Below, one piece after another: positions 3,708-19,256 of a stretch of 20,346 bases of DNA (positions are counted from its first letter, which is position 1; each line of letters opens with the position of its first letter). This stretch comes from Ignavibacteria bacterium (lineage in GTDB: Bacteria; Bacteroidota; Ignavibacteria; UBA10030; SZUA-254). A model generated the notes under the pieces. That model was not told the DNA's origin. It ran no database searches and saw only the letters and a list, made by a program, of their open reading frames with translations. The stretch is taken from positions 1-20,346 of the forward strand of contig VBOC01000044.1 in NCBI GenBank assembly GCA_005877655.1, in the 5' to 3' direction. A program made the position numbers and the translations under genes.

Positions 3708-3743
3708 GGAGAACTTTCGTATGATGGATCACCTGATGATTTC

Positions 3744-3814
3744 AAAAAAAATTCCCCCTCCGGAGATCGGGATGGGCAATCTCCACGCCTCGGTTCTCTC
3801 TTCGAGACAGACCG
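3744..3814 (-). promoter_or_regulatory. Structured 5' leader of the protease gene with a terminator-like hairpin
   Basis: Between the predicted promoter and ATG 3707 the minus-strand transcript can form a hairpin at 3814-3791 (CGGT...ACCG, with an inner TCTC-GAA-GAGA stem). It can also form one of two mutually exclusive hairpins: GGAGAT/ATCTCC (3784-3762), or ATCCC/GGGAAT (3773-3751) followed at once by eight U (3751-3744). The second looks like an intrinsic terminator, so the leader could work by attenuation. No known riboswitch class was recognised. Folding was done by eye only. Confidence 0.35.
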
Positions 3815-3852
3815 CTATCAGGCTCTATGATGCTTCGGGGGGCGACCTAAAT

Positions 3853-3895
3853 ATTGTAAAAAAAAGCGAATAGAAGCAACTTGATGGGTGTCACA
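3853..3895 (-). promoter_or_regulatory. Candidate protease promoter with a CRP/FNR-like half site
   Basis: On the minus strand a -10-like TACAAT lies at 3858-3853 and TTGCTT at 3879-3874, 15 bases apart. A TGTGA-N6-TCAAG element covers 3895-3880, with its centre 41.5 bases upstream of the start predicted from the -10 box. That is the class II position for CRP-family activators. Only the TGTGA half matches well. The predicted leader is about 139 bases long. Confidence 0.35.
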
Positions 3896-4038: not shown

Positions 4039-6496
4039 TTAGTCCCCATTTTCATAGCGCATTTGTTCCTCCTTCTGTTTCCTGGGAGGTGCGCCAAAAT
4101 GGTAGGTAAGGCCGATGTACGTTATTCGGGAATCGCGTGTGTTAACTACGGTCTGCTTCAGGAGAGGAGTATCGAGCCCGAGCTCCCGTTTCTGCGTTCT
4201 GAAGAGGTCCGAGACCGTTGCCACGAGGGAGAGCTTTCCGTCCATCAGTTCCTGGCGGAATCCTGTGTTGACAACGTATGTCGGCACATATTCTCCCTGA
4301 GGCGTCAGCCGGGCCGAATTATAGTTCGTATTGAGCTGCAACTTCGAAACCCCCGTGAGATTGATATTGACCGTGAAGCTGCTGCTCCAAGTCGTCGTGG
4401 ATTTATTTTGAATGAACCCCAGATTGGAGGCGTCGATCTGATTATAAAACCCGTTAATGCTCCAGTGAGCGGCAAGGAGGTTGCCCACGGTCGCAGAAAC
4501 GATCATTTCAAGTCCCCCCGACTGATCGTTTGAGAGATTCTGTCTGGTTGTCAGAAGCGTGGAGTCGTTGATCGCCCGTGTAATCTGCGTAAACCGATTA
4601 TAAGTGTACCGGTAATAGAGAGCCGGCAGAACGGATATTTGATCGTTCTGAAATTGGCATCCGAGTTCGAGTGCCTGGATGTATTCCGGCTGCAGGTACG
4701 GATTGCCCGCGGATACGTTTCTCGGGTCGCGGTATTCAGGGAATGGATTCAGGTCTTCCCCGCGAGGCCGGTTCGTACGGCGGCTGTAACTCAATTGCAG
4801 TTCGGCGACGTTGCTGATATAAGTGAAGAGTCGGATAAAAGTTGAAGTAGCTGTTTGAAACGGTGGAATCTCTGGTTACCAGCTCGGATTTTATGCTGGC
4901 TCCTTCAGTCCGCAGTCCCCCCTGCAGTCCGAACGCTCCGAACGATTGTTTGTACGTGGCATACACTGCATGTATCCTGCCATCGTAAAGAAATCGGTTG
5001 GTTTTTGTACTATCCTTCGCAAATTGCCCCTCGCTCGCATTGAAGGACTCCGCGTAGAAATCGAGATCATCGTTGTTGAACTCGCCGGAGTATCCGGCCT
5101 CCAGCGTGGACTTGTCGCTGAGCGGGTTCGAATAATCGAGCGAGAGCTGATTGCGGCGGTTGTCCTGCTTGATCAGCGTGTTATCATAGCTCGTCGAAGA
5201 GACGGGAAGCAGGTACGAATTCGTGAAATGATTGTCCTCCTGCTCGGGGGACCGGGATGCAGTGAACTCAAGACGGAGCCTGTGATCCTCCCTGGGAAAA
5301 TCGTGCTCAAGATAGGCGGTGAACCCGTATTCCTTTTCATATTCCGGATCGTACCGGTTCCTGCTGTATTCCTCCGTCGTCGCTCTTGAAGCATCCTGTA
5401 AAATGACATTCAAATTATCGGTTCTGGTAAAGGTATTGATAAAGAAGTTTCCCGAAAGGCCGAATTGATTGACCGCGTCCAGATGATAGTCCAGCCCCAG
5501 CGCCGCTATATTGGAAAGCGGGCTGGCATAGGACAAAAGATTCCCTCCGTAGTAGCTTGCCGAAGACGCCGAACCAATCTGTGTCCTGTTATCCGAGTTT
5601 GTGCGGTTGCGATTATCCTTGCGCAAGCTGTAGCTCGCCGAGAGGTTGTACTTGCCCGGGTTGTAATTCAGCCTGATATTGCCGTTGTAGCGCCCGGCGT
5701 TCCCCGCATTGCCGGTCAGATTGCCGTTGACGCCCTGGCTCGTGTTTTTCTTCATGACGATATTGATGATTCCCGCCGTCCCGTCGGGTTTAAACTTGGC
5801 GGACGGATTGGTAATCACCTCAATTTTTTCGATTGAACTGGCGGGCAGTTGCTGCAACACTTCTGCGCTGCTCTTGTCCATGAGCGCGGACGATTTCCCG
5901 TTCACCATGATGAGCACATTCGACGAGCCGCGGAGGCTCACATTCCCGTCGATGTCCACCTGTACGGAGGGAACGTGCTGCAGGAGCTCGCTCGCCGATC
6001 CTGCCTTGCTCATCAGGTCCTGCTCAACATTATAAACCTTCCGGTCGATCGAATTATTGAACATCGACTTCTCCGCGGTCACCAGAATTTCGTCCAGATT
6101 CACGGCTGCCGGCTCCAGTCCTACCGTGCCGAGATTGAGATGCCGGTGCAGCGAATCGATTTTAAAGAAGGGCGTCGATTTGTCCTTATACCCGATCAAA
6201 CCGAATGAGACAAAATACTCGCCGGCCGGCAGTTCCTGAAGCTCAAAGTTCCCCTGCTCATCGGTGACTTTTCCGGTGACGATGAGACTGTTGGCCATCT
6301 TGCGCAGGACGACGTTCACAAATGGCAGGGGACGATTTGCCGCATCGTCCTCTACCGTACCCTTGATCGTGCCTCCCGAGTGAGCTTGAGCGAGAAGCGC
6401 GTCCGATTGAAGAAAAGTAAGGAAAACCGCCGCGTGAAGGAGGGCTGGGAAGACCAATCCCATGCTGCGGGAGCGGCCGGTCAACGGAACGGGCAT
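4039..6496 (-). pseudogene. TonB-dependent-receptor-like outer membrane beta-barrel protein, frameshifted
   Basis: Family members form outer-membrane barrels that import ligands with TonB energy. After a hydrophobic signal segment ending DALLAQ come a CarboxypepD_reg-like domain (about residues 41-128, from GTIKGTVEDD), a plug-like domain (about 148-248: KVYNVEQDL, SLRGSSNVLIMVNGK, GTAGIINIVMKK) and a barrel. Near 4812-4823 the frame changes: TLH at the end of the first frame continues as ELQLSYSRRTNRP in another, which is contiguous sequence in intact relatives. The second frame runs to the stop at 4039 and ends with the usual IGLTYHFG strand. The shift fits one inserted base or two (mod 3) deleted, so it is either a recent mutation or an assembly indel. 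Start 6496 was chosen because an earlier ATG (6547) overlaps the upstream peptidase gene; ATG 6463 is also possible. Total length near 818 residues is normal. The ligand is unknown. Confidence 0.85.
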
Positions 6497-6510
6497 GCTC
6501 ACCGACCGGC

Positions 6511-8562
6511 TTACCAGATTTTCACCCGAACGCCTTCGTCTCGCCACATCGGATCGCCTTTCTTGATTCCGAACGTCGACAGGAACTCCGGCATGTCGGT
6601 GAGCGGACCGATCACCCGAAACTTCGCGGGAGAGTGTTCGTTGCTTCGAATCTGGCTTGCAATGGCTTCGGGCCGTTCGTTAATCATCCAGGCCAATGCG
6701 TATCCGAGGAAATAACGTTGGTCCGGATCCAAACCGCCGATCCGTTCATGCTTTGTGTACTGGCCGGTCTTCTGGAAAGCCTGATAACCCATCATGACGC
6801 CGCCGAGGTCTGCGATGTTCTCGCCCTGTGTCAGGTCGCCGTTGATGTGGAGCGTGTCGACGGGAATGTAAGCGTCGAATTGTCTGACGATCATCCTCGT
6901 CCTCGCATAGAACCTCGCGCTGTCTTCCGGCGCCCACCAGTTGTTCAGGTTTCCCCGTTCGTCATACTTGCTTCCCTGGTCGTCGAAGCCGTGCGTGATT
7001 TCATGCCCGAAGGTGGAGCCGCCGATGATGGAGTACAGCAATGCATCGTCCGCCAGCTTTCGCTCGTAACCCGGGACAAGGATGTTGCACCCCGGGACCA
7101 CGATCTCATTGTTGGAGGCATTGTAGTACGCATTGTAGGTTTGAGGCTCCATTTCCCATTCGGTGCGGTCGACGGGCTTTCCGAACTTCGAGATCATGTA
7201 ATTGAAGCTCCACTCATTTGCTTTTTTCACGTTTTGCACATACGATGCGCGGTCGATCTGCATGCTCGTCAGGTCTTTCCATTTATCGGGATAGCCGACT
7301 TTCATGATGACTGTGCTGAGTTTCCTGAGCGCCTTCTCCTTGGTCGCCTCGCTCATCCAGTCCAATGCCTTGATTCGTTCGGCATAGACAGATTTGATCG
7401 CATTTCCGATCTCAAGGAGTTTTTCCTTCGTCCCTTTCGGCAGATATTCCGCGACGTACACCCGGCCGATCAGTTCACCGAGCGAGCCGTCGGTTTGTTC
7501 AACCACGCGCTTCCACCGCGGCTTGGGCTCCTGCACTCCACGCAGCGTCGTGGAATAGAAACTAAAGGATTCTTGGTAGGTCTTATCATCCATGTAACGC
7601 GCCAGCCCGCGGATGAGATGAAACTTGAGATAATTCTTCCAGTCCTCAAGGGGGAAAGATTGGAGATAACCGTTCAGCGCGGTCAGAAATTCGGGCTGCC
7701 CGACGATTACCGTGTCCACGTCATGCAGCCCGGCGCCCTCCGCGAACACCGCCCAGTCGAGATTCGGCGTGCTTTCCGTTAGTTGTTTAAACGACATCTT
7801 GTTGTAATTCTTGAGCGGGTCCCGTGTGTCTTCCCGCTTCCGGGATGTGTTCGCAATCGCACTTTCCAGCTTTATCAGATTATCCGCCGCCTGCTTCGCT
7901 CCGGCATCGTCATACCCCATGATCATAAACATGTTCTGAAGATGCTCGCCAAATTTCTTGCGGATCATCACGGCGCGCGCGTCGGTATCGAAATAGAAAT
8001 TCCGGTCCGGCAGGCTCAATCCGCCCTGCGCGACAAAAATCGCATTCTTGCTGCTTATCTTGTCATCCTGTCCCACGCCGAATCTGAATAGCGGCGACCC
8101 GGATACGCGGTGAATATACGAAGCGGCTGCCACAACTCCCTTCCTATCCTTGACGCCGTCAATCCGGTCCAAATCGCTTTTCAGATCCCGGAGCCCGTTC
8201 TTATTGAGCGCGACGCTGTCCATGCCTGTCAGAAAGAAATCGCCGATTTTCTGTTTGTCGCTCCCCTTTTCGGCATTCGTTAATCGGGAAGACGACTCGC
8301 AGAGCGTGCGAATCTGGGCGTTAATCGTATCCTGAATCAACTGCCAGAGGCCGTTGCTCTGCTCGCTGGCGGGAATGGGGTTTGCCTTGAACCAATTCCC
8401 GTTCGCATAGAGGAAAAAATCGTCTCCAGGTTTTATGCCGGGGTCTATATGTGATGCCAGTGGATCAGTCACCTCCGCGTCGCCGTTCGATTGACCGAAT
8501 GCGGAAGTCAGGCCGAGCGCGATGGCGGGTACAAGTGACAGGAGGAATATGCGTGCTCTCAT
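6511..8562 (-). CDS. M13 family (neprilysin/PepO-like) zinc metallopeptidase
   Basis: Secreted zinc endopeptidase of 683 residues acting on peptides. A signal peptide (MRARIFLLSLVPAIAL...AFGQ) is followed by an M13 N-terminal domain (about 45-425, beginning GDDFFLYANGNW) and a catalytic domain. The catalytic domain holds NAYYNASNNEIVVPG, the zinc motif HEITH (H520, E521, H524) in FGHEITHGFDDQG, and the third ligand E581 with D585 in ENIADLGG. The end is VKIW where many M13 proteins end in C-x-x-W. An AAAGGA Shine-Dalgarno lies 7-8 bases before ATG 8562. The stop is 14 bases from the preferred start of the receptor gene, so the two are probably cotranscribed and may link peptide cleavage to uptake. 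All metal ligands and the catalytic Glu are present. Confidence 0.96.
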   Translation of the reverse strand: MRARIFLLSLVPAIALGLTSAFGQSNGDAEVTDPLASHIDPGIKPGDDFFLYANGNWFKANPIPASEQSNGLWQLIQDTINAQIRTLCESSSRLTNAEKGSDKQKIGDFFLTGMDSVALNKNGLRDLKSDLDRIDGVKDRKGVVAAASYIHRVSGSPLFRFGVGQDDKISSKNAIFVAQGGLSLPDRNFYFDTDARAVMIRKKFGEHLQNMFMIMGYDDAGAKQAADNLIKLESAIANTSRKREDTRDPLKNYNKMSFKQLTESTPNLDWAVFAEGAGLHDVDTVIVGQPEFLTALNGYLQSFPLEDWKNYLKFHLIRGLARYMDDKTYQESFSFYSTTLRGVQEPKPRWKRVVEQTDGSLGELIGRVYVAEYLPKGTKEKLLEIGNAIKSVYAERIKALDWMSEATKEKALRKLSTVIMKVGYPDKWKDLTSMQIDRASYVQNVKKANEWSFNYMISKFGKPVDRTEWEMEPQTYNAYYNASNNEIVVPGCNILVPGYERKLADDALLYSIIGGSTFGHEITHGFDDQGSKYDERGNLNNWWAPEDSARFYARTRMIVRQFDAYIPVDTLHINGDLTQGENIADLGGVMMGYQAFQKTGQYTKHERIGGLDPDQRYFLGYALAWMINERPEAIASQIRSNEHSPAKFRVIGPLTDMPEFLSTFGIKKGDPMWRDEGVRVKIW

Positions 8563-8782
8563 GTAAATGTCCTTTGTTTTTATATGTGGAACGTCCGGGG
8601 CAGGCGCTTATGTATCCGTAATAGAGCCGAAAGTGTTTCAGAGTCGATTGGTCGCGCTCATCACCTCCCTTGCGCGCCCGATCGGAAAACGGCGCCGCTC
8701 TCTTCCCGCTTCCGTCGCATATATAGTGTACGGAATGCCCCCTGGATTGTCAATCCCCACAAACATGTCCCCCGACACCCTC

Positions 8783-8824
8783 TGTGATAGATATGACATG
8801 GGGGGTGGGCAAACTTGCTAGAAT
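8783..8824 (+). promoter_or_regulatory. CRP/FNR-like operator and extended -10 promoter before the C0 remnant
   Basis: A dyad TGTGA-N6-TGACA covers 8783-8798. It is followed by an extended -10 element TGC-TAGAAT (8816-8824; five of six matches to TATAAT). The dyad centre is about 40.5 bases upstream of the predicted start near 8831, the class II activator position. The same elements at the same spacing recur before A1. The rest of the 275-base gap 8563-8837 shows only the AT-rich upstream region of the divergent M13 gene. Confidence 0.45.
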
Positions 8825-8837
8825 TGGTACATTGATC

Positions 8838-9074
8838 ATGAAAAACCTTAATTCAGGCACGTTCCGCGGGCTTCTCATTGCCGACGATATCATTCATATC
8901 CATGGTACAATCGTGGGAGCTGTCGTTTCTCTCACACCATCTCCCTCTTCGGGCAATGCGATCGGAAACGGCTCGGGGTTCGCGCTCTTCTCGAATACCA
9001 ATATTCTCAAGGCAACGGAAGGGGCCGTATTGGTACCCAACGGCAGTCAGGATGCGGTCGCTTGGCGGGAGTAG
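8838..9074 (+). pseudogene. C0: 3' remnant of a PilX-like pseudopilin family gene
   Basis: The 78-codon frame contains only the last quarter of a family C protein: SGTFRGLLIADDIIHIHG, SGNAIGNGSGFALFS and NGSQDAVAWRE align with the end of C1 (10431-11534). The N-terminal membrane helix and most of the extracellular domain are missing. Homology begins near 8845, immediately after a promoter region like the one before A1. This suggests a deletion fused the promoter of a lost cassette to the tail of its last gene. No Shine-Dalgarno precedes ATG 8838, so translation is doubtful. Confidence 0.8.
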
Positions 9075-9173
9075 TTTCGATCTTTCGGCCGGCAATCATA
9101 GGGCCGCAAGAATCGGACGTATGGGCCGATTTCAGTGCCACCCGCCCCCACGATCTTGTCGCAAGACACTGCC

Positions 9174-9215
9174 TGTGATACGGCTAACAGGGTGGGTGAG
9201 CCATCTTGCTAAATT
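9174..9215 (+). promoter_or_regulatory. CRP/FNR-like operator and extended -10 promoter of the A1-B1-C1 cassette
   Basis: A dyad TGTGA-N6-TAACA (9174-9189) is followed by TGC-TAAATT (9207-9215). The distance from TGTGATA to CTTGCTA is 31 bases, the same as in the copy at 8783, and TACATT also recurs at the same offset. The predicted start is near 9222, leaving a leader of about 70 bases. The leader can form a small hairpin (CGGGG 9238-9242 with CCCCG 9251-9255). Upstream, TCTTG-TCG-CAAGA (9154-9166) is another short inverted repeat. Confidence 0.5.
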
Positions 9216-9292
9216 GGTTACATTCTTAGGAAGAAATCGGGGAAAACAGACCCCGCGGACGAATTCAATGCACAATAACGGGATCGGATGCT

Positions 9293-9844
9293 ATGGGCGC
9301 TAATATGATACTCACGATAGGCGCAATTCTGTTGTTCGGAACGCTCCTCGTGAATTCGAACAATATCATCTCCAGCAATAGCCAGATTGCCGCCCAGAAC
9401 GAGTATTACATTTCCGCGCTGGCCATTGGCCAATCGGTTGTCGACGAGGCGAAGACGAAAGCATTCGATCAGCAAACTGTTTCTTCCGGAGTTGCTTCGC
9501 CCGGCGCCATGACACATTGGAGTTCACTCGGACGGGATGGGGGGGGCGAAGCTGTGCCGAACCCGGATACACTGTCGACAAGCTCGCCCTTCACCACGAC
9601 GGCCCCGGGTTACTGGTCTTCGGTAAAATTTAACGACGTCGACGACTACAACGACTACAAACGCATCGTCAATACTCCGCGAGCCGAAGGCTTTAATGTT
9701 CTCGTGAAGGTCAAGTATGCAAGTCCCACGTACCCCGATTCCCTGTACGCAAGCAGCCGATCATACTGTAAATGGATGAGGGTATACGTCTGGAGCAAGT
9801 ATATGGCGGATACGGTGAAAGTCTATTACTCCTTCTTGTACTAG
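9293..9844 (+). CDS. A1: PilV-like pseudopilin family protein
   Basis: Protein of 183 residues with an N-terminal hydrophobic helix (about 5-21, MILTIGAILLFGTLLV) and an amphipathic extension ending in EAKTKAFDQ. The rest resembles a small periplasmic domain containing FNDVDDYNDYKRIVNTPRAEG and YASPTYPDS. This architecture, and the helix text AIGQSVVDEAKTKAFD, resemble PilV/GspI-type minor pseudopilins; that is inference, not a database match. There is no cleavable prepilin leader of the usual form and no Glu5. The stop overlaps the Shine-Dalgarno of B1 (TAGGAGAGAG), so A1, B1 and C1 form one operon. A2 is a full-length paralogue. Confidence 0.8.
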   Translation: MGANMILTIGAILLFGTLLVNSNNIISSNSQIAAQNEYYISALAIGQSVVDEAKTKAFDQQTVSSGVASPGAMTHWSSLGRDGGGEAVPNPDTLSTSSPFTTTAPGYWSSVKFNDVDDYNDYKRIVNTPRAEGFNVLVKVKYASPTYPDSLYASSRSYCKWMRVYVWSKYMADTVKVYYSFLY

Positions 9845-9853
9845 GAGAGAGAT

Positions 9854-10420
9854 ATGCAGGTCATTTTAGATATCCTCGGATCTATGGTCATCGGCGGGCT
9901 CCTCATCATCATGATGTTGAATCTGAATTCCAACATCAGCGAAAGCGCCGCCACGCAAACATTCAATAACATAACCCAGCAAAATCTTACCACGGTCTCC
10001 GACATTTTGGAAAACGATTTCAGGAAAATGGGTTATCACATTTTCGACTCGGTCAAAGTGACGTATACCGACACCTCCGAGATCAAATTTCAGACCGACC
10101 TTTACGGAGATTCAGCGATCCATGTCGTGCGATATTACTTCAACCCGGCTGCGGTCTCGGGGCAGGAAAATACAAACACACACGTGCTCTATCGCCAGAT
10201 TGACAATAAGCCGCAAATGCCGATCAATCTCGGGCTCACAAAGGTCCGGCTCTGGTACTATAGCGGCGCAGGAAACCTGTTGACCGGCAACTCTACCGCG
10301 ACGCTGGCGAAAATAAGAGCCATTAAAGTTGCAATGAGTATCGAAAGCGTGTCCGCATGGAACAAAAAGTATTCAGGCGCTTACTGGGAGCGCACAATTA
10401 AACCGAAAAATCTATTTTAA
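9854..10420 (+). CDS. B1: PilW-like pseudopilin family protein
   Basis: Protein of 188 residues with an N-terminal hydrophobic segment (about 7-22) and the motif LTTVSDILENDFRKMGYHI, which resembles the start of PilW/GspJ-type minor pseudopilins (an R-x-x-GY pattern after the helix). Later blocks are INLGLTKVRLWYY and a conserved tail SGAYWERTIKPKNLF shared with B3. An acidic residue sits at position 6 (MQVILD), which becomes position 5 if only Met is removed, matching the place of Glu5 in pilins; B3 also has Asp there. Start ATG 9854 follows GGAGAGAG by 4 bases. Family assignment is by architecture. Confidence 0.78.
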   Translation: MQVILDILGSMVIGGLLIIMMLNLNSNISESAATQTFNNITQQNLTTVSDILENDFRKMGYHIFDSVKVTYTDTSEIKFQTDLYGDSAIHVVRYYFNPAAVSGQENTNTHVLYRQIDNKPQMPINLGLTKVRLWYYSGAGNLLTGNSTATLAKIRAIKVAMSIESVSAWNKKYSGAYWERTIKPKNLF

Positions 10421-10430
10421 CGGATAAACT

Positions 10431-11534
10431 ATGAGCGGCAGAGCAATCATCATCTTCATCGCAGGCCTCATCGTCATCTCGGGCGTTGTATTCCACAACA
10501 TCGAAGCGTCGAGCACGCTCATCACACAGAACTTCAACAAATACTATCTGCGGCAGACAGCCCAGGACATAGCGCAGACCGGCGCGGCAATGGCGCTGCG
10601 GCAAATTGGAAACGACATCACGTGGAGAACCGGCTTCCCCCTGATGAACCTGGCCTCCGGCAAGGTGCAGGTGACGGCGTCCGACTCGACGTTCTTTGGA
10701 AGGAAAGTTATCAAGATCGTTTCTATCGGCTATTCGCAATACGGGACCTCCCTTGAGCGGCGGGATACATGCATCACGTACCAGCGCAGATCGTTTGTGC
10801 CCTCATTTGTCTATGGAGCCGTGACGACGAATAATCCCGTCAGCGCGGCCGGAAGCATGATTATCGATGGAAGAGATCACGACACGATAGGTACGACCGT
10901 CATTCCGGGGCAGGGACAATGGGGCATCTGGACAACGAAAACCTTTGTTCAGAGCGGCGCTTCCATGGTCGGCGGGACGGCAGCCGGCACCGATTATGCG
11001 CCGGCCAACCCGGGGAACCCCGCGGTCATCAAACAACTGCAAATATTAACAGGGGGGTATCCTGGAACTCCTGATAGCGTTATGGGGGCCATATCAATCG
11101 GTTATCCGGAGGGCACCCTGAAAGCGATTGCGCAGAGCGGCATCAACGGAAGCCGGTACACGACAAACCCGGCGACACTGACCATGCCGTTGAAGGGCGT
11201 AACCTACGTCGAGCTCCCTTCGGCGGGAACCTGGTCCCCGGGGCCTCTGAGTGGCTCGGGAATTCTCGTCGTCCACAACAGCAATAAGAACTCACTTCTC
11301 TCGAATGTTAATGGCGGCATTTTCCGGGGACTCATTATTAGCGACGACATCGTTCACCTCCATGACACAATCGTCGGAGCCGCTGTTTCTCTCACGCTCG
11401 CGCCCTCCGCGGGCAATGTGATCGGCAACGGCACAGGGGCGGTTCTGTTCTCCAAAACCTCCATTAAGAAAGCAACCGAAGTGGCGGTCATGCCGCCCAA
11501 CGGGAGTCAGAATGCCGTGGCCTGGCGGGAATGA
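10431..11534 (+). CDS. C1: PilX-like pseudopilin family protein with conserved C-terminal domain
   Basis: Protein of 367 residues beginning MSGRAIIIFIAGLIVISG, an N-terminal membrane helix followed by a long helical region with AQDIAQTGAAMALRQI, like the AEAG region of PilX-type minor pilins. The middle holds GYPEGTLKAIAQSG and LKGVTYVELPS. The C-terminal domain (about residues 265-367) has SGILVVHN, GIFRGLIISDDIVHLHD, GNVIGNGTGAVLFS and ends AVAWRE. This last block is the part preserved in C0. It starts 10 bases after B1 stops. A surface or pseudopilus role is inferred; no enzyme motif is seen. Confidence 0.78.
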   Translation: MSGRAIIIFIAGLIVISGVVFHNIEASSTLITQNFNKYYLRQTAQDIAQTGAAMALRQIGNDITWRTGFPLMNLASGKVQVTASDSTFFGRKVIKIVSIGYSQYGTSLERRDTCITYQRRSFVPSFVYGAVTTNNPVSAAGSMIIDGRDHDTIGTTVIPGQGQWGIWTTKTFVQSGASMVGGTAAGTDYAPANPGNPAVIKQLQILTGGYPGTPDSVMGAISIGYPEGTLKAIAQSGINGSRYTTNPATLTMPLKGVTYVELPSAGTWSPGPLSGSGILVVHNSNKNSLLSNVNGGIFRGLIISDDIVHLHDTIVGAAVSLTLAPSAGNVIGNGTGAVLFSKTSIKKATEVAVMPPNGSQNAVAWRE

Positions 11535-11567
11535 TGCACAGTTCGAGTCAGCGATTTTAAGCCCTCC

Positions 11568-11600
11568 GGAGGACCGAAGAGTCCTCCTCGGTCCGATTTT
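11568..11600 (+). terminator. Hairpin with short U-run between C1 and A2
   Basis: Two overlapping stems are possible: GGAGGAC (11568-11574) with GTCCTCC (11581-11587), loop of 6, and GGACCGA (11571-11577) with TCGGTCC (11588-11594), loop of 10. The second is followed by GATTTT (11595-11600). The position, 34 bases after the C1 stop and before the A2 Shine-Dalgarno, suits an intrinsic terminator or attenuator separating two transcription units. The U-run is short, so termination may be partial. Confidence 0.6.
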
Positions 11601-11625
11601 CGTCTGTTAAGGATAGAGTAAACCT

Positions 11626-12168
11626 ATGGGAACAAACGTCATCCTGGCTGTCGGCGCTTTAGTGATCTTCGGGACGTTTCTCGCTTCCTCGAATCGCCTG
11701 ATGACCGTTAATACGCAGATCGCGGAACAGAACGAATATTACATCAGCGCGATCTCGCTTGCTCAATCGATCATCTCCGAGGCAAAGGCGAAAGCATTCG
11801 ACGAGAACACCGTTTCGGGGTCCGTCCCGAGTCCCGATTCGCTGAGTTTAACACTGGGGCCCGACGGTTTTACCGAATCTGTGCCCACCACGGATACGCT
11901 GATAACGAGCAGCCCGTATGACGCGCAGAATCCGGGATATCGTTCGACGTTTAGATTCAACGATGTGGACGATTACGAAGGCTACAAACGGCTGGTCAAC
12001 ACACCGCGGGCTGAAGGTTATACGCTCACGGTAAGGGTCGCCTATGCGAGTCCAACGTACCCTGACTCGATGAAATCATCGCCTACTTTTTGCAAGAAGA
12101 TGACCGTCTCCGTCAAGAGTCCTTTCATTCCCGATTCGCTCTCGCTTTCCTATGCTTTTGTGTATTGA
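11626..12168 (+). CDS. A2: PilV-like pseudopilin family protein
   Basis: Paralogue of A1 with 180 residues and the same layout: hydrophobic helix (MGTNVILAVGALVIFG), QNEYYISAISLAQSI, EAKAKAFDENTV, FNDVDDYEGYKRLVNTPRAEG and YASPTYPDS, ending SYAFVY. The shared aromatic C-terminus (FLY in A1, FVY in A2) may matter for folding or contact. An AAGGATAGAG Shine-Dalgarno precedes ATG 11626. The terminator-like hairpin just upstream suggests separate or attenuated expression from C1. Unlike A1 it is followed directly by a C gene, with no complete B gene between. Confidence 0.8.
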   Translation: MGTNVILAVGALVIFGTFLASSNRLMTVNTQIAEQNEYYISAISLAQSIISEAKAKAFDENTVSGSVPSPDSLSLTLGPDGFTESVPTTDTLITSSPYDAQNPGYRSTFRFNDVDDYEGYKRLVNTPRAEGYTLTVRVAYASPTYPDSMKSSPTFCKKMTVSVKSPFIPDSLSLSYAFVY

Positions 12169-12176
12169 GGACTGCC

Positions 12177-12215
12177 ATGACGGTGCAGAACGACAAATGG
12201 GTGCGTAAATCATGA
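12177..12215 (+). other. Micro-ORF of 12 codons coupled to C2
   Basis: ATG 12177 follows AGGACTGCC, almost the same as the AGGATTGCC before B3, and encodes MTVQNDKWVRKS. Its TGA overlaps the C2 start as ATGA. A similar-sized frame with the same ATGACG start precedes C3. It may be the stub of a lost B gene or a coupling peptide that aids reinitiation at C2. The ATGA overlap arises because every C gene starts ATGAGC, so it is weak evidence alone. Confidence 0.3.
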
Positions 12216-13277
12216 GCGGCAAAGCTATTATTATCATCGTGGTCGGAATCGTTGTGGTCTCGGGGATCGTTCTCTACAATATCGAAGCGGGAAGCATAGC
12301 GATCACCCGAAACGTCGATCGGTTCTTTTCGGGACGAGCCGCACAGAACATTGCTCAAAGCGGCGTGAACATGGCCCTCAGGCAGCTTGCCAATAACAAG
12401 GACTGGAGAACGGGTTTTCCTTCAATCGATATGCTTGGCGGAAAAGGTTTCGTACAGGTCAGTGATTCGACATGGTACGGCAAGAAAGTGATCAAGATAG
12501 TTTCGGTCGGAATCCTGAATCAGGGACAACCGTTCGAAGTGCGTGATACGTCGATGGCGTACCTTCCCCGGGGCGGGGTTCCAGGGACAATCAGAGGGTT
12601 GATTACAACCGATAGCCCGACATCTCTCGAAGGAAATCCTCTCCTAGACGCTCGGGATCATACCGCCTTGGGCGCCCTCGTTCCGGGTAACGGGACCCTG
12701 GCGGTCTGGACTACAAAAACCATATCGCCCGCGGGAAACCCGATAATTGGTGGAACGGTCTTGGGAGTAGACTACGTTCCCTCGGATCCCTATCTTCCCG
12801 TTGTTGTCCAGAGCGGGCAATCGTATCCAAACTATCCTTCGACGCCCGACAGTGTCCTGGGCGGATCGGCGGAAGGTTACCCCGAAGGGACATTGAAAGC
12901 CATCGCTCGGAGCGGCAATGGAAATCAATACGCGACGGATCCGTCCACGCTTACCTATCCTCTGAACGGAGTCACGTACGTTGAACTCCCTTCCGGGGAG
13001 TCCTTCACGAATACGAATATCACCGGATCAGGCATTCTGTTTTACAGGACTGGTCCTGGTGGATGATTGCTTGAAACAAAGCGACATACCCCACTCCGGG
13101 TCACCCGTTTTGACCGGTGCCGTTTTCGCCATGTCGCCCGACGGTAAGAAGGGCCGGTGGGGGAATAGCAACGGCAGCTACCTCTACTCGTCGGAAGCAA
13201 TTGAGAACGCCATGAAGACCGCTGCAATCGCATCAGGCAGAAGTCTTGCCTCGAGCGTTTTGGGCTGGTGGGAATAA
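12212..13277 (+). pseudogene. C2: PilX-like pseudopilin gene disrupted by deletion and frame change
   Basis: The first frame (12212-13066) matches C3 closely from MSGKAIIIIVVGIVVVSG through YPEGTLKAIARSG and LNGVTYVELPSGES. After SGIL it diverges and stops. The continuation lies in the next frame from about 13046: FTGLVLVDD, GNSNGSYLYSSEAIENA and the ending VLGWWE at 13277. Compared with C1 and C3, about 50 bases are missing between SGIL and FTGL (in C3 the missing text is VVHNSSRSAVYNNSTGT). The junction is at about 13038-13050. As written it encodes a 284-residue protein without the conserved C-terminal domain. An assembly gap is possible, but a deletion of this size is not a simple base error. 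Confidence 0.8.
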
Positions 13278-13294
13278 TCGTCTAGAGGATTGCC

Positions 13295-13857
13295 ATGAAT
13301 GCCATGTATGATCTCCTGTGCTCAATTGTTATCGGCGGCATTCTCCTCGTGATGCTGGTGGGATTCAACGGGACGATCACCGAACAGGCGGGGGCCCAGA
13401 CCGTGAGGATGATGGCGCAGTCCAGCCTTACCACAATCGGCGATCTGGTGGATTACGAATTCCGAAAAATGGGATATCAGGTGCCTAAGGGAACCGACAG
13501 CGCGATCGTCTTTGCCGACACAAGCAAGATCACGTTCAAGGCGGATATCGACAACGACGGCACAGTCGACATCCTCACATACGAGCTTGTACGAAGACCC
13601 ATTATCTGTATAGAACAAAGAACGGACAGACGGAATTGATTAATCTGGGACTGACGCAATTTCGGATAACCTATTATGATGCATCCGGGAAGCAATTGAC
13701 ATCGTATCCCATACAGCGTCCATCCAAGATCAAGTCTATTAAAATCGCAATGAATGCCGAGAGCCTTGTGCCCTACATCGAACGATCCGAGAACTATCTC
13801 AAAGCCAGTCCCGGCGCTTACTGGGAACAGACGATCAAGCCGAGGAACATACGGTAA
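13295..13857 (+). pseudogene. B3: PilW-like pseudopilin gene with a one-base frameshift
   Basis: Paralogue of B1. The first frame from ATG 13295 (Shine-Dalgarno AGAGGA five bases upstream) has MNAMYDLL, a hydrophobic helix, LTTIGDLVDYEFRKMGYQV and ILTYELV. Near 13594-13600 the frame shifts and continues HYLYRTKNGQTELINLGL through PGAYWEQTIKPRNIR to TAA 13857. Restoring one base before CCCAT would give THYLYR, aligned with THVLYR in B1, so a single deleted base explains it. All domains are otherwise present. This could be a recent mutation or a sequencing indel next to the CCC run. Confidence 0.8.
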
Positions 13858-13898
13858 TGACGATCATCATCAACAACGAGCGGGGGGGTGGCGCATGA
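13857..13898 (+). other. Micro-ORF of 13 codons between B3 and C3
   Basis: ATG 13857 overlaps the B3 stop as TAATG and encodes MTIIINNERGGGA; its TGA overlaps the C3 start as ATGA. The run of seven G (13882-13888) inside it can serve as Shine-Dalgarno for C3. It matches the micro-ORF before C2 in start context (ATGACG), length and frame. Both overlaps suggest termination-reinitiation coupling from B3 to C3. Expression as a peptide is unproven. Confidence 0.3.
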
Positions 13899-14980
13899 GC
13901 GGGCGGGCGATCATCATCATTGTCGTCGGCATTATTGTCGTCTCCGGGATCATCCTCTATAATATTGAGGCGGCAAGCGTATCCATCACCCAAAACGTCA
14001 ACCGATTCTACTCCGGACGGGAGGCCCAGAATATCGCTCAAAGCGGTGTCAATGTCGCTCTCGGACAACTTGCAAATGACAGGCAATGGAGGACCGGGTT
14101 CCCCTATATGAAGATGCTCGGCGGAAAAGTCTCCGTGACCGTGAGTGATTCCATCTGGTACGGGCAGAAGGTAATTAAGATCGTCTCTGTTGGAATCATG
14201 AACTCCGGAACTGCCTCGGAAGAAAGGGATACATCGATCGCGTATCTTTCGAAAGGGATTTTCCCACCCGGCGTCAAGGCACTGGTGACCGCCCGCACTG
14301 ACATAACCGTGAATGGAAATATGACAATCGATGCCCGGGATCACCTCCCATCCGGAGCACTGGGTCCAGGAGTCGGCACCTATGCCATCTACAGCACGAA
14401 AAGCTTCACCCCGGGGGGAAGCTCGCAGACCGGAGGTACGAATTCATCCGGAACAGATTATGCTCCGGCGTCGACTCCAGGCCCAGGCGTCGTTCTGACC
14501 GATGTTACGTGGCCGGACTATCCCGGTACGCCCGATAGCGTGATGGGGGGAACCGGCAACGGGTTTCCCGAAGGAACGCTCAAGGCAATGGCGAAAACCG
14601 GCGCGCGGGGCAGCCAGTATTCGCCGGACGGAAGCGGAATCAGGACTCCGCTAAAGGGCGTTACCTACATCGAGGGCAATTATGCGGGCAGCATGGACGG
14701 GACGGGCATCCTCGTGGTTCACAACAGCAGTAGGAGCGCCGTGTACAATAATTCAACCGGCACTTTTATGGGGCTTCTCATCGTCGACGATATTATTCAC
14801 GACCATTCAACTCTTTACGGAGCTATGGTGGTTTTGACCCCCAACCCTCCGGCGGGCAATGTCTTCGGAAACGGAAACGGCGGAGTATATTTCTCGCGGG
14901 ACGCGATTTATAATGCCGTTGGGGGGCTCCAATCGCTCGGACACGGAAGTTCCGCCGATGTCCTGGGCTGGTGGGAATAA
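13895..14980 (+). CDS. C3: PilX-like pseudopilin family protein with conserved C-terminal domain
   Basis: Intact 361-residue paralogue of C1 and C2. ATG 13895 was chosen because MSGRAIIIIVVGIIVVSG matches the starts of C1 and C2 and follows a G-rich Shine-Dalgarno; a longer frame from 13754 reads through B3 out of frame. The helix is followed by REAQNIAQSGVNVALGQL, then FPEGTLKAMAKTG and LKGVTYIEG. The C-terminal domain has GTGILVVHN, GTFMGLLIVDDIIHDH, GNVFGNGNGGVYFS and the tail VLGWWE. It is the last gene of the island and is followed by a strong terminator. Function is inferred only from architecture. Confidence 0.78.
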   Translation: MSGRAIIIIVVGIIVVSGIILYNIEAASVSITQNVNRFYSGREAQNIAQSGVNVALGQLANDRQWRTGFPYMKMLGGKVSVTVSDSIWYGQKVIKIVSVGIMNSGTASEERDTSIAYLSKGIFPPGVKALVTARTDITVNGNMTIDARDHLPSGALGPGVGTYAIYSTKSFTPGGSSQTGGTNSSGTDYAPASTPGPGVVLTDVTWPDYPGTPDSVMGGTGNGFPEGTLKAMAKTGARGSQYSPDGSGIRTPLKGVTYIEGNYAGSMDGTGILVVHNSSRSAVYNNSTGTFMGLLIVDDIIHDHSTLYGAMVVLTPNPPAGNVFGNGNGGVYFSRDAIYNAVGGLQSLGHGSSADVLGWWE

Positions 14981-15191: not shown

Positions 15192-17771
15192 TTATTCGCT
15201 CACAAACGGGCGCTGCCCGGATGTTTCAGTCTTTATCCGGAGTGTAGCGGTCTTCAGTCCCTCGGAGAATGCCTTAAGGGATACCCCGCCCGCCCGGCGT
15301 CCGGCCTGAATGATCACCTGGCACTTACCGCCGAACAACTTCCTCCGGTAACCTCCCGCAAGGTACTTGTCCGGCTCATGGCTGCTGGGATTGCCGTTTC
15401 CGACGCCGATGATGGTTCCATCCCCCTCGATTTCGAACCGGATCAGACTTTCGGCGGTGGCGATCTCCCTCCCTTCGCGATCAAGGGCATTCACTTCGAC
15501 GACACAGACATCCTCTCCGTCGGCACGGATGGCTGATCGGTCGGGTGTGAGTCCGATTGCGGCCGGTTCTCCGGTAGTCTCGACTCTTGACCGGATCGTT
15601 CTACTCTTTCTCCAGCCGCGAGCCTCGAGAGTACCCGGCTCGTATGCGACCTTCCACTGGAGATGCGAATTCGGCTCCATGATTTTTCTTCCCAGGCTCC
15701 TGCCGTTGAAGGACAACTCCACGCTGTCGCAGTTGCTCTGGCACCAGACGTCGATTGGCTGACCGACTCTCCCGCTCCAGTTCCAGTGGGGCGCGAGGTG
15801 AAGCACGTCTATGTCCGACCACCAGGATTGATAATAGTAAAAATTATTCTTCGGGAACCCGCACACATCGACGATGCCGAAATGTGAGCTGATGCAGGGC
15901 CAGTCGTACGGGCTCGGCTCGCCGCGGTAGTCGAATCCGGTCCAGACGAACGCCCCGGCCATCCATTTTCTTGCGGCGCAGTATTTCCACCAGGGTTCGG
16001 CGAGCGATCCATACCCGGGCGCGTTGACGTCATAATCACTGATGAACCCGTTGAGCGTATCGTTCGCGTAAATTCCGCGGGTGCAGTATGTGCTTGCTTC
16101 CTCGCTACCAAGGAGCGGTTGATCGGGATGATCGCGGTGATATTTGTCGATGTCCCCCCGCCCGATGTAATTCACACCCCTCACGTCGACCACGCTGTTA
16201 ACCCCTTCATAATGGTCGCCGTTGTCGGCCGCGAACGTGCAGAGGCGGCTTGGATCGAATTCCTTCTGGACTCGTTTCAGCGATCGGGCGATGTTTCTTC
16301 CCGTCTCGTTGTTCTGGATCCACCACTCCTCGTTCCCGAGCGACCAGATCATCACCGACGGGTGGTTCCGGTCCCGGAGAATGAGCTCCTGAAGCTGCCC
16401 CGCCGGTTCCGGCGTACTTCCCATCAGGCGATTCTCATCCATGACGAGCATGCCCAGCCGGTCGCAGGCCTCAAGGAGTTCAGGCGTCGGAGGATTGTGG
16501 CTCGTCCTGTAGGCATTGCATCCCATTTCCTTCAGCTTCCTGATCCGAAAGTATTGCAGGCCGTCGGGAAGCGCGGATCCGACTCCGGCATGATCCTGAT
16601 GACAGCATACTCCCTTGATCTTTACCGGCTTTCCGTTTAGAAAAAGGCCGCTATCCTTGTCGAACCGCACGGTTCGAATTCCAAACGGGGTTTCAGCCCG
16701 ATCCACGGTGTCCTGGCCCGAATGAATCGTCGAAACAAGCTTGTAGAGTTGCGGGGACTCGATCGACCAGAGCCTCGGGTTGGAGACGACGATGCTCTGT
16801 CGCAGATTTCTTTGCTCATTGGGGGCGAGGTTTAGAATATCCGACGACCCCCTTCCGACAACCGCGCCATCTTCGCCGGTGGCGGCGGAAACAAGCATGC
16901 AGCTCACCCGGGCATCGTTCTCGTTAAGGATCGTGGTCTCGATATTCACGCGACTCCAGCCGGAGGCGGGCTCGGCGGTCTCAGTCGTCACAAACGTTCC
17001 GTACAATGGGATATGCAGCGGGGCAGTTTTCAACAGCCAGACGTGACGGTAAATGCCCGCGCCTTCGTAGAACCAGCCTTCATACTGGCTCGCATCCACC
17101 CGTACGACGACAACATTTTTGCCTCCGTATTTCAGATAATCTGTGATGTCGAAGCTGAACTCGTTGTAGCCGCTGAGGTTGCGCCCCAGGAAATGCCCGT
17201 TCAGCCACACGACGCAGTCGCGGAACACACCGTCGAACTTCAGGGTAAGCCTTTTCCCCTTGTCCCCCTCGGGGACAATGAAGGTGCGACGGTACCATCC
17301 GATCGTGGTTTTCGGAAATCGCCGGCCGATAGGTTTGTAACCGTGGCTTCTTACGTCTTCGTCGTTCAACGAGCTGTCGTTGAAATCGGGCTTTGCGGGG
17401 CCGGCAGCATCCCCCGCTTTTGCGAAAGAGGCATGCGCCCCATAGCCGAAGTCCCCTTCCACAGATGCGGCGTCTCCAAGGTGGAACCTCCACCCGAAGT
17501 CAAACAAAAGCTGCTCTCTGACCGATTTCCCGTGAGTCTGCCCGAAGATCGGGCCGGTCACGGTCAGGCACATGAATGCCGCGAGGATCGCCGGATGGGA
17601 GGATCGAATCAGCCTCACCAGGAGTGCCGCCAATACCCCCGGATGACGAACGCGGAGCGGCCTCGCCGCGAACGCCTCGGACACGACCGGCCGGGGAATT
17701 CGCGCCGGCATCATAACGTCTTGCCTGCCTGTCCCGTACACCACCGGAGCAATTATATCCGTTAACCTCAT
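15192..17771 (-). CDS. Exported glycoside hydrolase family 2 enzyme (beta-galactosidase-like)
   Basis: Retaining glycosidase acting on beta-linked sugars. Counting from ATG 17771, a sugar-binding jelly roll covers about 87-247 (GWYRRTFIVP, DCVVWLNGHFLGRN, YEGAGIYRHVWL), an Ig-like domain about 249-357, and a TIM barrel about 362-650. The barrel has GVCCHQDHAGVG, CNAYRTSHNPP, acid/base Glu481 in SLGNEEWW and candidate nucleophile Glu557 in LLGSEEAS. Later parts include WCQSNCDSVELSFNGRSLGR, typical of extra C-terminal beta domains. A hydrophobic stretch ending PIFGQ fits a signal or lipoprotein-less export segment after a long basic N-terminus. The start is uncertain: 17771 lies just after the methyltransferase stop, 17714 is possible, and 17855 overlaps that gene. 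GH2 also includes beta-glucuronidases and mannosidases, so the sugar is not certain. Confidence 0.9.
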   Translation of the reverse strand: MRLTDIIAPVVYGTGRQDVMMPARIPRPVVSEAFAARPLRVRHPGVLAALLVRLIRSSHPAILAAFMCLTVTGPIFGQTHGKSVREQLLFDFGWRFHLGDAASVEGDFGYGAHASFAKAGDAAGPAKPDFNDSSLNDEDVRSHGYKPIGRRFPKTTIGWYRRTFIVPEGDKGKRLTLKFDGVFRDCVVWLNGHFLGRNLSGYNEFSFDITDYLKYGGKNVVVVRVDASQYEGWFYEGAGIYRHVWLLKTAPLHIPLYGTFVTTETAEPASGWSRVNIETTILNENDARVSCMLVSAATGEDGAVVGRGSSDILNLAPNEQRNLRQSIVVSNPRLWSIESPQLYKLVSTIHSGQDTVDRAETPFGIRTVRFDKDSGLFLNGKPVKIKGVCCHQDHAGVGSALPDGLQYFRIRKLKEMGCNAYRTSHNPPTPELLEACDRLGMLVMDENRLMGSTPEPAGQLQELILRDRNHPSVMIWSLGNEEWWIQNNETGRNIARSLKRVQKEFDPSRLCTFAADNGDHYEGVNSVVDVRGVNYIGRGDIDKYHRDHPDQPLLGSEEASTYCTRGIYANDTLNGFISDYDVNAPGYGSLAEPWWKYCAARKWMAGAFVWTGFDYRGEPSPYDWPCISSHFGIVDVCGFPKNNFYYYQSWWSDIDVLHLAPHWNWSGRVGQPIDVWCQSNCDSVELSFNGRSLGRKIMEPNSHLQWKVAYEPGTLEARGWRKSRTIRSRVETTGEPAAIGLTPDRSAIRADGEDVCVVEVNALDREGREIATAESLIRFEIEGDGTIIGVGNGNPSSHEPDKYLAGGYRRKLFGGKCQVIIQAGRRAGGVSLKAFSEGLKTATLRIKTETSGQRPFVSE

Positions 17772-17779
17772 CGTGATCG

Positions 17780-18526
17780 TTACCCGTTTAGCGATTTTCT
17801 TCCGACTCTCATGAAAAATGGAAAGGTAACTTTCTTTTTCGGTTCGCTCCCCCATGTTTTTCTGAGCTTCCCGGCAATCTTATCGACCGGATTCGCGTTG
17901 TTCTTATCGATGTAATGCTGAACCGCGGACCACGTGTTGAGATACCCGACGAGCTGGTCGAACTCCCATTCATGCTCGAGGAGGAACGACGGGGCGTTTA
18001 TTTCCCGGAACGGAAATGGTATGGTTTGATAATTATCGTCCACAAATTTTCGTTCTTCGTCCCAATAAGGATCGGTGATCTTGGTATAGAACTTATCGAT
18101 CACCGCGTCCGTTTCGTCTCCCGTCTTCAGGAGCGAATAGGCGAAGACTGCCAGGATTCCGCCGGATTTTAACGTTCGATCGACTTCCTTGTAAAACCGG
18201 GGAAAGTCAAACCAGTGGACGGCTTGCGCGACGGTTATCAGATCAAAGAGTTCGTCTGGAAAAGAGGTTTGTTCTGCCGCCTCGATCTTATAGACGACGT
18301 TGGGTTTTGCGACGGCATGCTTGATTTGATTTTCGCTGATATCGGTGGCATAGACCTTTTCGAAGTATTCTGCGAGCACTGCGGCGACCTGCCCATTTCC
18401 GGTACCGCAATCCCACGCCGCTTGGCGTTCAGGAACCAACGAAATCAGGAATTCAAAAAGTTGCCGGGGATAGGTGAGCCGGAACCGGGCATACAGGTGG
18501 GATCGCTTTGAGAAATTGTCTTTCAT
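17780..18526 (-). CDS. Class I SAM-dependent methyltransferase
   Basis: Cytoplasmic methyltransferase of 248 residues with motif I DCGTGNGQ (39-46), the acidic strand-2 residue in YATDIS (Asp62), EAAEQTSFPD (82-91) and FDLITVAQAVHWFD (94-107). The AVHWFD block is typical of Methyltransf_11 proteins related to trans-aconitate methyltransferases; the substrate here cannot be assigned. GGGGAG lies 8 bases before ATG 18526. It is 22 bases downstream of the SRAP gene and ends 8 bases before the glycosidase start, so the three are probably cotranscribed. Confidence 0.92.
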   Translation of the reverse strand: MKDNFSKRSHLYARFRLTYPRQLFEFLISLVPERQAAWDCGTGNGQVAAVLAEYFEKVYATDISENQIKHAVAKPNVVYKIEAAEQTSFPDELFDLITVAQAVHWFDFPRFYKEVDRTLKSGGILAVFAYSLLKTGDETDAVIDKFYTKITDPYWDEERKFVDDNYQTIPFPFREINAPSFLLEHEWEFDQLVGYLNTWSAVQHYIDKNNANPVDKIAGKLRKTWGSEPKKKVTFPFFMRVGRKSLNG

Positions 18527-18548: not shown

Positions 18549-19256
18549 TTACACGGGCCGGATGAGTTCCGGCGAATCTATCCTGGCGTTATTGACTGCA
18601 GTCGATACAACCTGTGCCTTCATTTTCGATTCCGGGAACGGCCTAAGGTACGCCTTCAGTTTGTCGAAGTCCTCATAGGCCGGATCAAGCCACTCCTTCA
18701 ACGCCTTGTCGTCGAGGATGACGGGCATCCGGTTGTGGATCGGTTTGAGCAGCTCGTTCGGGCCGGTCGTGATGATCGCTCCCGTCAGGATGGATTTCTT
18801 GCCCTCCTCCTTCATTCGCCAAAGCCCGGCGAGGGGAAATATTTCGTTATCCTTCAGGAAAATTCTATGGGGAGTCTTGCGAACCCCTTTCGGAAGGGGC
18901 TTCTTTCCGGATTCTTTCGGCGCCTGCCATTCGTAGAACCCGTCGGCCACAAATACGCACCGATTTCGGAGCAGCAATGCCCGAAAGAATTTATTTCTCG
19001 CTACCGTGTCATCCCGGATGTTGATCTGCGTGGAAAACTTGCTCCCTTCCTTCTCGGCCCAGGGAGGAGTCAACCCCCAGAAGACATTCGTGAGATAGCG
19101 CTTCCCATCCTCTTTGGAAACGATTCCAGGGACGAACTGTGCCGGCGCGGCGTTGTACCTCGGTTTATAGTCCCGGAAATCAGGGGCGAGCTCGGCCTGG
19201 AACCGTTTCAGGATGAAGTCGACCTTGTCCGCAGTTATGGTGAACCGGCCGCACAT
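18549..19256 (-). CDS. SOS response-associated peptidase (SRAP, YedK/HMCES-like)
   Basis: SRAP proteins crosslink to abasic sites in single-stranded DNA through Cys2 and protect them. This 235-residue protein has MCGRFTI with Cys2, KPRYNAAPAQ, FWGLTPPWA, Asn79 in INIR, Glu109 in DGFYEWQ and His174 in IHNRMPVIL, matching the family active-site set. The INIRDDT stretch differs from the common INARAET. Length is normal for the family. It lies 58 bases after the small membrane protein gene and 22 bases before the methyltransferase gene. No LexA-type operator was recognised upstream. Confidence 0.95.
   Translation of the reverse strand: MCGRFTITADKVDFILKRFQAELAPDFRDYKPRYNAAPAQFVPGIVSKEDGKRYLTNVFWGLTPPWAEKEGSKFSTQINIRDDTVARNKFFRALLLRNRCVFVADGFYEWQAPKESGKKPLPKGVRKTPHRIFLKDNEIFPLAGLWRMKEEGKKSILTGAIITTGPNELLKPIHNRMPVILDDKALKEWLDPAYEDFDKLKAYLRPFPESKMKAQVVSTAVNNARIDSPELIRPV

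Follow-up and report, generated by a model that had tools for sequence, protein, structure and literature searches.

Tandem pilin-like cassettes in an Ignavibacteria genome: candidate tips of a proposed leaderless type IV filament system

Results

A plus-strand array of A, B and C genes

The stretch of DNA analysed in this work (bases 1-20346 of contig C224 of the Ignavibacteria draft genome G000, which is 79% complete; called the window below) contains a plus-strand block of genes, C0-A1-B1-C1-A2-C2-B3-C3, which represents three small protein families, A, B and C, and is located between minus-strand genes (Table 1). This island, beginning with a C0 fragment, had been described in the original prediction, and all its named parts were recovered at their place by inspection of reading frames and by tblastn. 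Our main result goes beyond that observation: the cassettes point to a leaderless type IV filament system, apparently free of prepilin peptidase. Named relatives of the window proteins come from Ignavibacteria and Bacteroidota bins.

A1-B1-C1 forms a complete set, and A2-C2-B3-C3 has a single A and a single B gene with two C genes, like the ABCC sets of relatives. In addition to the identities given in Table 1, tblastn gave 59% between C2 and C3 over the first 260 residues (34% in the part that follows), and 38% and 42% between B1 and the two parts of B3. The copies are real duplications, as evidenced by DNA repeats within the array that align without gaps over 300, 223 and 137 nt (72, 73 and 70% identity, respectively) and by profile E-values far from chance. 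C3 is identical to protein P0073 over 361 amino acids, both parts of B3 are matched by the B protein of locus L040 (55% and 51%), and the nearest full-length relatives of the C0 remnant are P0005 (86%) and P0006 (84%), over 79 amino acids. Scanning of the window for promoters and terminators found 8 and 6, respectively, versus 5.3 and 6.4 in shuffled sequences.

Table 1. Coordinates of the array genes, of the candidate major pilin genes and of neighbouring genes (positions in the window unless a locus is named)
Feature	Position	Strand	Remarks
C0, 3' remnant of a C gene (solenoid end and last strand)	8796..9074	+	tblastn versus C1: 58% identity to C1 residues 267-367 at 8796-9071
A1, 183 aa, leaderless minor pilin, GspI/PilV class (plausible, by gene order only)	9293..9844	+	profile A, E 2e-73
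B1, 188 aa, leaderless, predicted GspJ/PilW-class minor pilin	9854..10420	+	
C1, 367 aa, leaderless, predicted GspK/PilX-class tip pilin with inserted beta-solenoid (ComZ-like)	10431..11534	+	
A2, 180 aa, second A	11626..12168	+	54% to A1 (tblastn)
C2, full-length second C, one frame change near 12986-13066	12212..13277	+	frames 12212-13066 and 12981-13277; 50% to C1 (tblastn)
B3, second B, one frame change near 13583-13597	13295..13857	+	frames 13295-13639 and 13636-13857
C3, third C, 361 aa, intact	13895..14980	+	50% to C1 (tblastn); start set by homologues
Four tandem 125-126-aa proteins, MG(Q/S)QQLL start, upstream of pilC	L007 5464-7326	-	candidate major pilins
M13 peptidase gene	6511-8562	-	one flank of the array
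Glycosyl hydrolase family 2 gene	15192-17855	-	other flank of the array
SRAP (SOS response-associated peptidase) gene	18549-19256	-	ordinary

Predicted folds and classes of the three families

The model of B1 contains a helix (residues 2-57) and a sheet, and its matches are pilins, with the GspJ/PilW minor-pilin fold. The pseudopilins XcpW/EpsJ/GspJ are close to it, the Thermus pilins TTHA1219 and ComZ are equally close across B and C, and TTHA1219 is the best match of B. In the model of C1, helix 3-61 is followed by strands reaching residue 119, a solenoid (121-343) and a last strand (362-366). Judging from these models, B is a predicted minor pilin of the GspJ/PilW class and C a predicted pilin of the GspK/PilX class, in which a beta-solenoid is inserted before the last sheet strand, in the layout of Thermus ComZ. 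The best matches of the C solenoid were ice-binding proteins; a Foldseek search with C returned zero rows at E<=0.001. Unrelated folds had been named in the original prediction as an outcome that would speak against it; B and C turned out to have pilin folds in their models, and on this ground the view of A, B and C as unrelated surface proteins was rejected.

Homologues with normal leaders occur in other phyla. PilX_N was matched over cut-off by five of the seven leadered C proteins tested, that is, C homologues carrying a leader peptide (E 2e-13 to 8e-9; from Syntrophaceae, Nitrospirota, Deltaproteobacteria and two Zymogenus-type loci), and N_methyl by all three leadered B proteins tested. 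Thus, the originally proposed likeness to PilV-PilW-PilX is borne out for B and C by their folds and their homology to PilX_N and N_methyl proteins, whereas the assignment of A to the GspI/PilV class is plausible by gene order only, and sequence and profile comparisons of A gave no link to GspI. Unlike these relatives, none of the eight window frames tested matched a Pfam family over cut-off, and NCBIfam was likewise uninformative on window proteins. When solved structures were searched by sequence, the A-family alignment (alignment A4) and the C-family alignment (alignment A1, composed of the window C1 and 92 of 120 listed proteins, out of 498 found) gave no matches, and for the B-family alignment (alignment A3, 65 rows) the best pilin row was TTHA1219, at E 0.07 and ranked below an unrelated row. 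Profile-profile comparison gave a probability of 13% for A versus B and 2% for B versus C.

A C-like stretch (E 5e-76) was also noticed inside a 1415-aa frame of another genome (G006, L044 4934-9181, minus strand); the domain may occur outside the pilin context.

Pilus assembly genes elsewhere in the genome and gene order in relatives

The absence of core pilus genes, stated in the original prediction, is true for the window, which has no core pilus assembly gene, but not for the genome, where pilB, pilC and a secretin gene are present, the first two adjoining another A-B-C set. On contig C90, four pilin-like genes encoding proteins of 125-126 amino acids are followed by pilC (split), pilB, A and B, in this order, and the contig ends after the first part of C. 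The four small proteins begin with MG(Q/S)QQLL and, as candidate major pilins, have no acidic residue near position +5; the copy of the 125-aa candidate in a second genome of the same genus (G001, 99% complete) gave no Pfam match, and two more distant candidates gave no family over cut-off. Contig C31 opens with a frame matching the C profile (E 1.8e-15), which is followed by a second ATPase gene, a PilM-like gene (recognized by eye) and a secretin gene (PF00263, E 3.7e-28). The ATPase family PF00437 was found at four places in the genome, one of them adjoining another A-B-C set and none within the window.

In G001, a single locus contains four genes for 125-126-aa pilin-like proteins, pilC, pilB, A, B and C, and then a second PF00437 ATPase gene, a gene that is PilM-like by a weak match (E 3.6e-8, well under the cut-off of the family), a gene whose product seems to have a single membrane helix, and a secretin gene over the Pfam cut-off. 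The platform protein of this locus matches PF00482 at E 1.7e-28, and the copy on contig C90 matches by profile in its two frames. The gene order of G001 is kept in the genome studied here, broken over contigs C90 and C31.

Co-occurrence of the three families, on which the original proposal depended, proved to be wide. Among leaderless loci (leadered ones excluded; matches at E up to 1e-10, with contig-end fragments and the split C2 of the window counted), 65 of 93 distinct C frames lie directly after A-B and nine after B-C, and the tandem sets ABCABC, ABCABCABC and ABCC are common. Twenty further stretches were hand-picked from B-positive genomes of other families; 19 of them have the A-B-C order and one (L141) has C-A-B. 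An extra frame is present between A and B in L137 and L142, and the frame at the C position falls below the profile threshold in L139, L143, L144 and L147. Runs of pilin-pilC-pilB-A-B-C-second ATPase were found in loci titled Calditrichaeota (L083), Coatesbacteria (L102) and Latescibacterota (L087).

Some loci deviate from these patterns. In L082 and L091, titled Latescibacterota, C is located upstream of the pilin gene, separate from A and B, and L061 (2440-8820) contains a rearranged array, with B-C-A-B-A-C on the plus strand and one C on the minus strand. Contig C152 of the genome studied here (L125 7116-9092) encodes a second PilB-like ATPase of 658 amino acids; PilB-like genes adjoin cassettes also in L036, L037, L039, L040 and L041, and the C152 PilB may serve satellite cassettes.

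Missing leader peptides

Classical prepilin leaders consist of 6-26 residues ending in Gly (PMC4471445), and the pilins described here have no class III signal peptide of this kind. We counted the distance to the nearest in-frame stop back from the aligned Met, allowing any start codon, for distinct proteins whose match begins in the first 8 profile positions, leaving out 14 loci classed by eye as leadered. A stop was found at most five codons upstream in 49/71 B, 65/85 C, 17/22 125-aa pilin-like and 30/68 A proteins. Since these stops are too close, a leader hidden by a wrongly chosen start codon was rejected for most B, C and pilin-like proteins, though not for most A. In the window the stop lies 3 codons before B1, A2 and B3 and 1 codon before C1 and C2; the exceptions are A1, with 21 open codons, and C3, with 47, for which a longer start is formally possible. 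Among the 20 further stretches mentioned above, the longest possible B frame starts no more than three residues from the beginning of the profile in 19, and has 46 additional open residues in L140.

In an alignment with leadered homologues, Met of 55 of the 65 rows of leaderless B occupies the column of Gly(-1) of leadered B (7/7), and an acidic residue is present in the Glu5 column in 64/65 (alignment A3), this acid being missing, by eye, in relatives of family f28. In C, Gly is residue 3 (M-x-G) in 90/93, in the column that holds Gly(-1) in 16/16 leadered C. From these positions, the B proteins look as if they had been trimmed back to Gly(-1) itself and the C proteins to a point two residues upstream of it.

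Prepilin peptidase in related genomes

In a set of 59 genomes (that of the window and 58 relatives), the prepilin peptidase domain PF01478 was found over cut-off in 5, PF00437 in 53 and N_methyl in 7. PF06750 was over cut-off in 5 of the 59 genomes, four of them being PF01478 genomes and the fifth (G046) showing a match of 36 positions only; below cut-off it appeared in 12 more. Neither PF01478 nor PF06750 gave any match in G000 or G001. A single contig encodes the peptidase together with an N_methyl protein and an ATPase in each of G004, G009, G018 and G047, as would be expected for a second, ordinary system.

The possibility that the peptidase is missing merely from a 79% complete assembly was rejected, because G001 is also without it, and so are nine of the ten single-contig B-positive genomes of the phylum, with PF01478 found in G121. 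When 13 genomes were searched at E 10, seven besides G121 had no PF01478 match and five had sub-threshold ones, the best with E 0.04 over 48 positions. The sensitivity of the search can be judged from a control set, in which PF01478 was found in 12/14 genomes; one miss was Lactococcus lactis, where PF06750 matched. The T. composti control genome has a prepilin peptidase, unlike most genomes with leaderless pilins.

Comparison of leaderless and leadered loci, covering 50 of 67 named loci, gave PF01478 in 7/41 genomes of the former and 8/9 of the latter (Fisher p 9e-5), some of these genomes being also among the 59, so that the counts are not independent. Two of the seven positives are titled Deltaproteobacteria and Gaiellales, which fit ill, and mixed bins are possible. 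Among 247 sampled genomes of the phylum, 84 contained B, 35 contained PF01478 and 9 had both; PF01478 was not depleted in B-positive versus B-negative genomes (p 0.34), most B-negative genomes being without PF01478 too.

On contig C237 of G007 (2905-3858), three N_methyl proteins are encoded in a genome devoid of a PF01478 match; a contig absent from the assembly, contaminating DNA or divergence of the peptidase could each account for this.

Integrity and history of the copies

C2 and B3 contain one frame change each. An intact 371-aa relative of C2, P0103, is 99.6% and 97.5% identical to its two parts. The gene for a TonB-dependent receptor in the window is also split into overlapping minus-strand frames (4039-4794 and 4736-6547), which cover neighbouring sections of a single profile, and pilC of contig C90 is broken likewise. 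For these reasons, the frame changes are more probably due to small errors of assembly or to differences between strains than to decay of the array.

A2 is followed directly by C2, with no B in between, and C2 by B3, with no A. The near relatives of C1, C2 and C3 are P0003 (82%), P0090 (90%; VES59_03865) and P0074 (67%; VES59_03875), respectively; we infer that their genes lie on one contig, with a single gene between the last two, and the layout of the window, including the missing B and A positions, therefore looks inherited. In a tree of the first 277 residues of C (P0001 left out), C1, C2 and C3 each fall into a supported group of their own, together with close relatives from other assemblies. 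Recent tandem duplication was rejected on this basis, and several tips seem, from the tree, to have been retained side by side. The loss of copies by deletion, suggested in the original prediction, is weakly supported: the C0 remnant agrees with it, and the grouping of C1, C2 and C3 with separate close relatives speaks against it.

Discussion

Homology, the folds of B and C, gene order, the missing leaders and the lack of a detectable prepilin peptidase were all obtained here by computation. We are fairly confident that the window contains alternative tip cassettes for a leaderless type IV filament machine that is encoded elsewhere in the genome. According to this proposal, A, B and C would form a complex like that of GspI-GspJ-GspK, serving to initiate the filament and to cap it. 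The 125-aa protein would be the major pilin, added onto the tip complex by PilB and PilC and passing through the secretin. C, as the largest subunit, would cap the tip, and its displayed solenoid might be the part that touches a surface, a sugar or DNA. Subunits would be translated at, or one to three residues from, their mature N-terminus, with assembly proceeding unprocessed and no need for prepilin peptidase. Extra cassettes would provide different tips on one machine, and those of the window would presumably be served by the machine of contigs C90 and C31 or by the additional PilB of contig C152.

In a wider sense, it appears rather likely that Ignavibacteria, other families and classes of the phylum, and the organisms of loci titled Calditrichaeota, Latescibacterota and Coatesbacteria build filaments from subunits made in mature form. 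In these lineages Met of B would have replaced Gly(-1), the leader and, mostly, the peptidase would have been given up, and solenoid tips would have diversified by means of tandem A-B-C cassettes. The system lacks two features that define the superfamily, the leader and the prepilin peptidase, and has the others tested, namely pilin-type subunits (B1 and C1), an assembly ATPase, a platform protein and a secretin. It should thus be regarded as type IV filament-like rather than as an ordinary member.

One group of observations weighs against this proposal: N_methyl proteins are encoded in G007, G024 and G045, which gave no PF01478 match. Such genomes would fit a leader that has shrunk to M-x-G or M-G and is still cut after Gly by an unidentified or strongly diverged peptidase, as would the Gly at residue 3 of C, aligned with Gly(-1) of leadered homologues, and the Gly that lies, by eye, close to Met in the 125-aa pilins and in many A proteins. 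However, B, which should assemble with C, has Met at this place, not Gly, and a leader of two or three residues would be below the range quoted for classical ones (PMC4471445). The searches at E 10 and the agreement of PF06750 with PF01478 also speak against it, and we find a shrunken leader unlikely. A type II-like secretion pseudopilus, with cassettes acting as cargo-specific tips of a structure that is not an extracellular pilus, deserves somewhat more credit, yet it is also doubtful. XcpW/EpsJ/GspJ are among the close folds, the secretin scores about equally as GspD and PilQ (87.1 versus 86.8 bits, both below cut-off), and Bacteroidetes 'T2SS' were reported to cluster with type IVa pili (PMC6668835). 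On the other hand, the Thermus pilins TTHA1219 and ComZ are equally close in fold, in several loci C is followed by a second ATPase gene, a position that would suit a retraction ATPase, and the solenoid of C would be more receptor-like than secretion-like.

It is also improbable that the window cassettes are decaying, functionless leftovers of duplication. The C0 remnant, the split C2 and B3 and the A2-C2 and C2-B3 junctions, which miss a B and an A, respectively, would be understandable in that case, but each of C1, C2 and C3 belongs to its own supported group of relatives, and P0103 is intact while unrelated genes of the same assembly are split too; decay was rejected as the principal explanation on the latter grounds. 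We give hardly any credence to the idea that A, B and C stay in the membrane as anchored surface proteins and never become part of a filament. The window has no assembly gene, which would agree with this idea, and the filament itself is predicted; against it stand the folds, the homology to leadered PilW/PilX-type proteins and the pilB/pilC operons of relatives.

The layout had originally been thought to be without a described counterpart. This is not so for A-B-C, which matches the gene order of GspI-GspJ-GspK, and no described parallel was found for the A-C-B-C arrangement of the window. The classical GspI-GspJ-GspK subunits have leaders cut by prepilin peptidase, unlike A, B and C. Pilin-like cassettes repeated within a genome are also formed by the leadered Verru_Chthon proteins (TIGR02600) of Verrucomicrobia; the only match to these was weak (E 0.02, a leadered Nitrospirota homologue), and five window proteins tested gave none.

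The closest known counterpart of C is ComZ of Thermus thermophilus, described with PilA2 (PMC6561018), which shares with it the pilin domain with a solenoid inserted before the last strand and for which ice-binding proteins were likewise reported as the best solenoid matches. ComZ is larger, its solenoid domain comprising ~380 residues, and binding of DNA was shown for it (PMC6561018). It was reported that ComZ itself has no key pilin sequence motifs, tip capping by ComZ was argued, and GspK (GspI-GspJ-GspK/XcpVWX) carries another kind of insertion (PMC6561018).

As to leader processing, prepilin peptidases were reported in all listed phyla with such systems except Nanoarchaeota in the accessible text of PMC4471445, and MSH loci have no peptidase of their own and may borrow that of another system (PMC6668835). 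In the accessible part of a paper on Caldithrix abyssi, a type IV pili cluster is mentioned with no detail (PMC5317091). In the literature searched, which lay largely outside subscription papers, we found no paper describing such leaderless pilins. The genome paper on Melioribacter roseus reported pilB, pilC and pilQ but no pilA or pilD, and judged the set probably incomplete (PMC3534657). A contig titled Melioribacter roseus (metagenome bin, L062) contains two leaderless A-B-C sets, and our proposal is that, in contrast to an incomplete set, the pilins are present but leaderless.

Removal of the leader by a dedicated peptidase is viewed as a defining and nearly universal step in the formation of type IV filaments. 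If our proposal is true, a whole lineage without the peptidase would mean that cleavage is not needed for assembly. It would also explain the finding of pilB, pilC and pilQ without pilA and pilD in the Melioribacter genome (PMC3534657), and would imply that pilin finders based on the leader miss these pilins. A question would then arise as to what prevents the untimely assembly of cleavage-free pilins. The cassettes would provide a set of naturally varied tip complexes on which binding by pilus tips could be studied.

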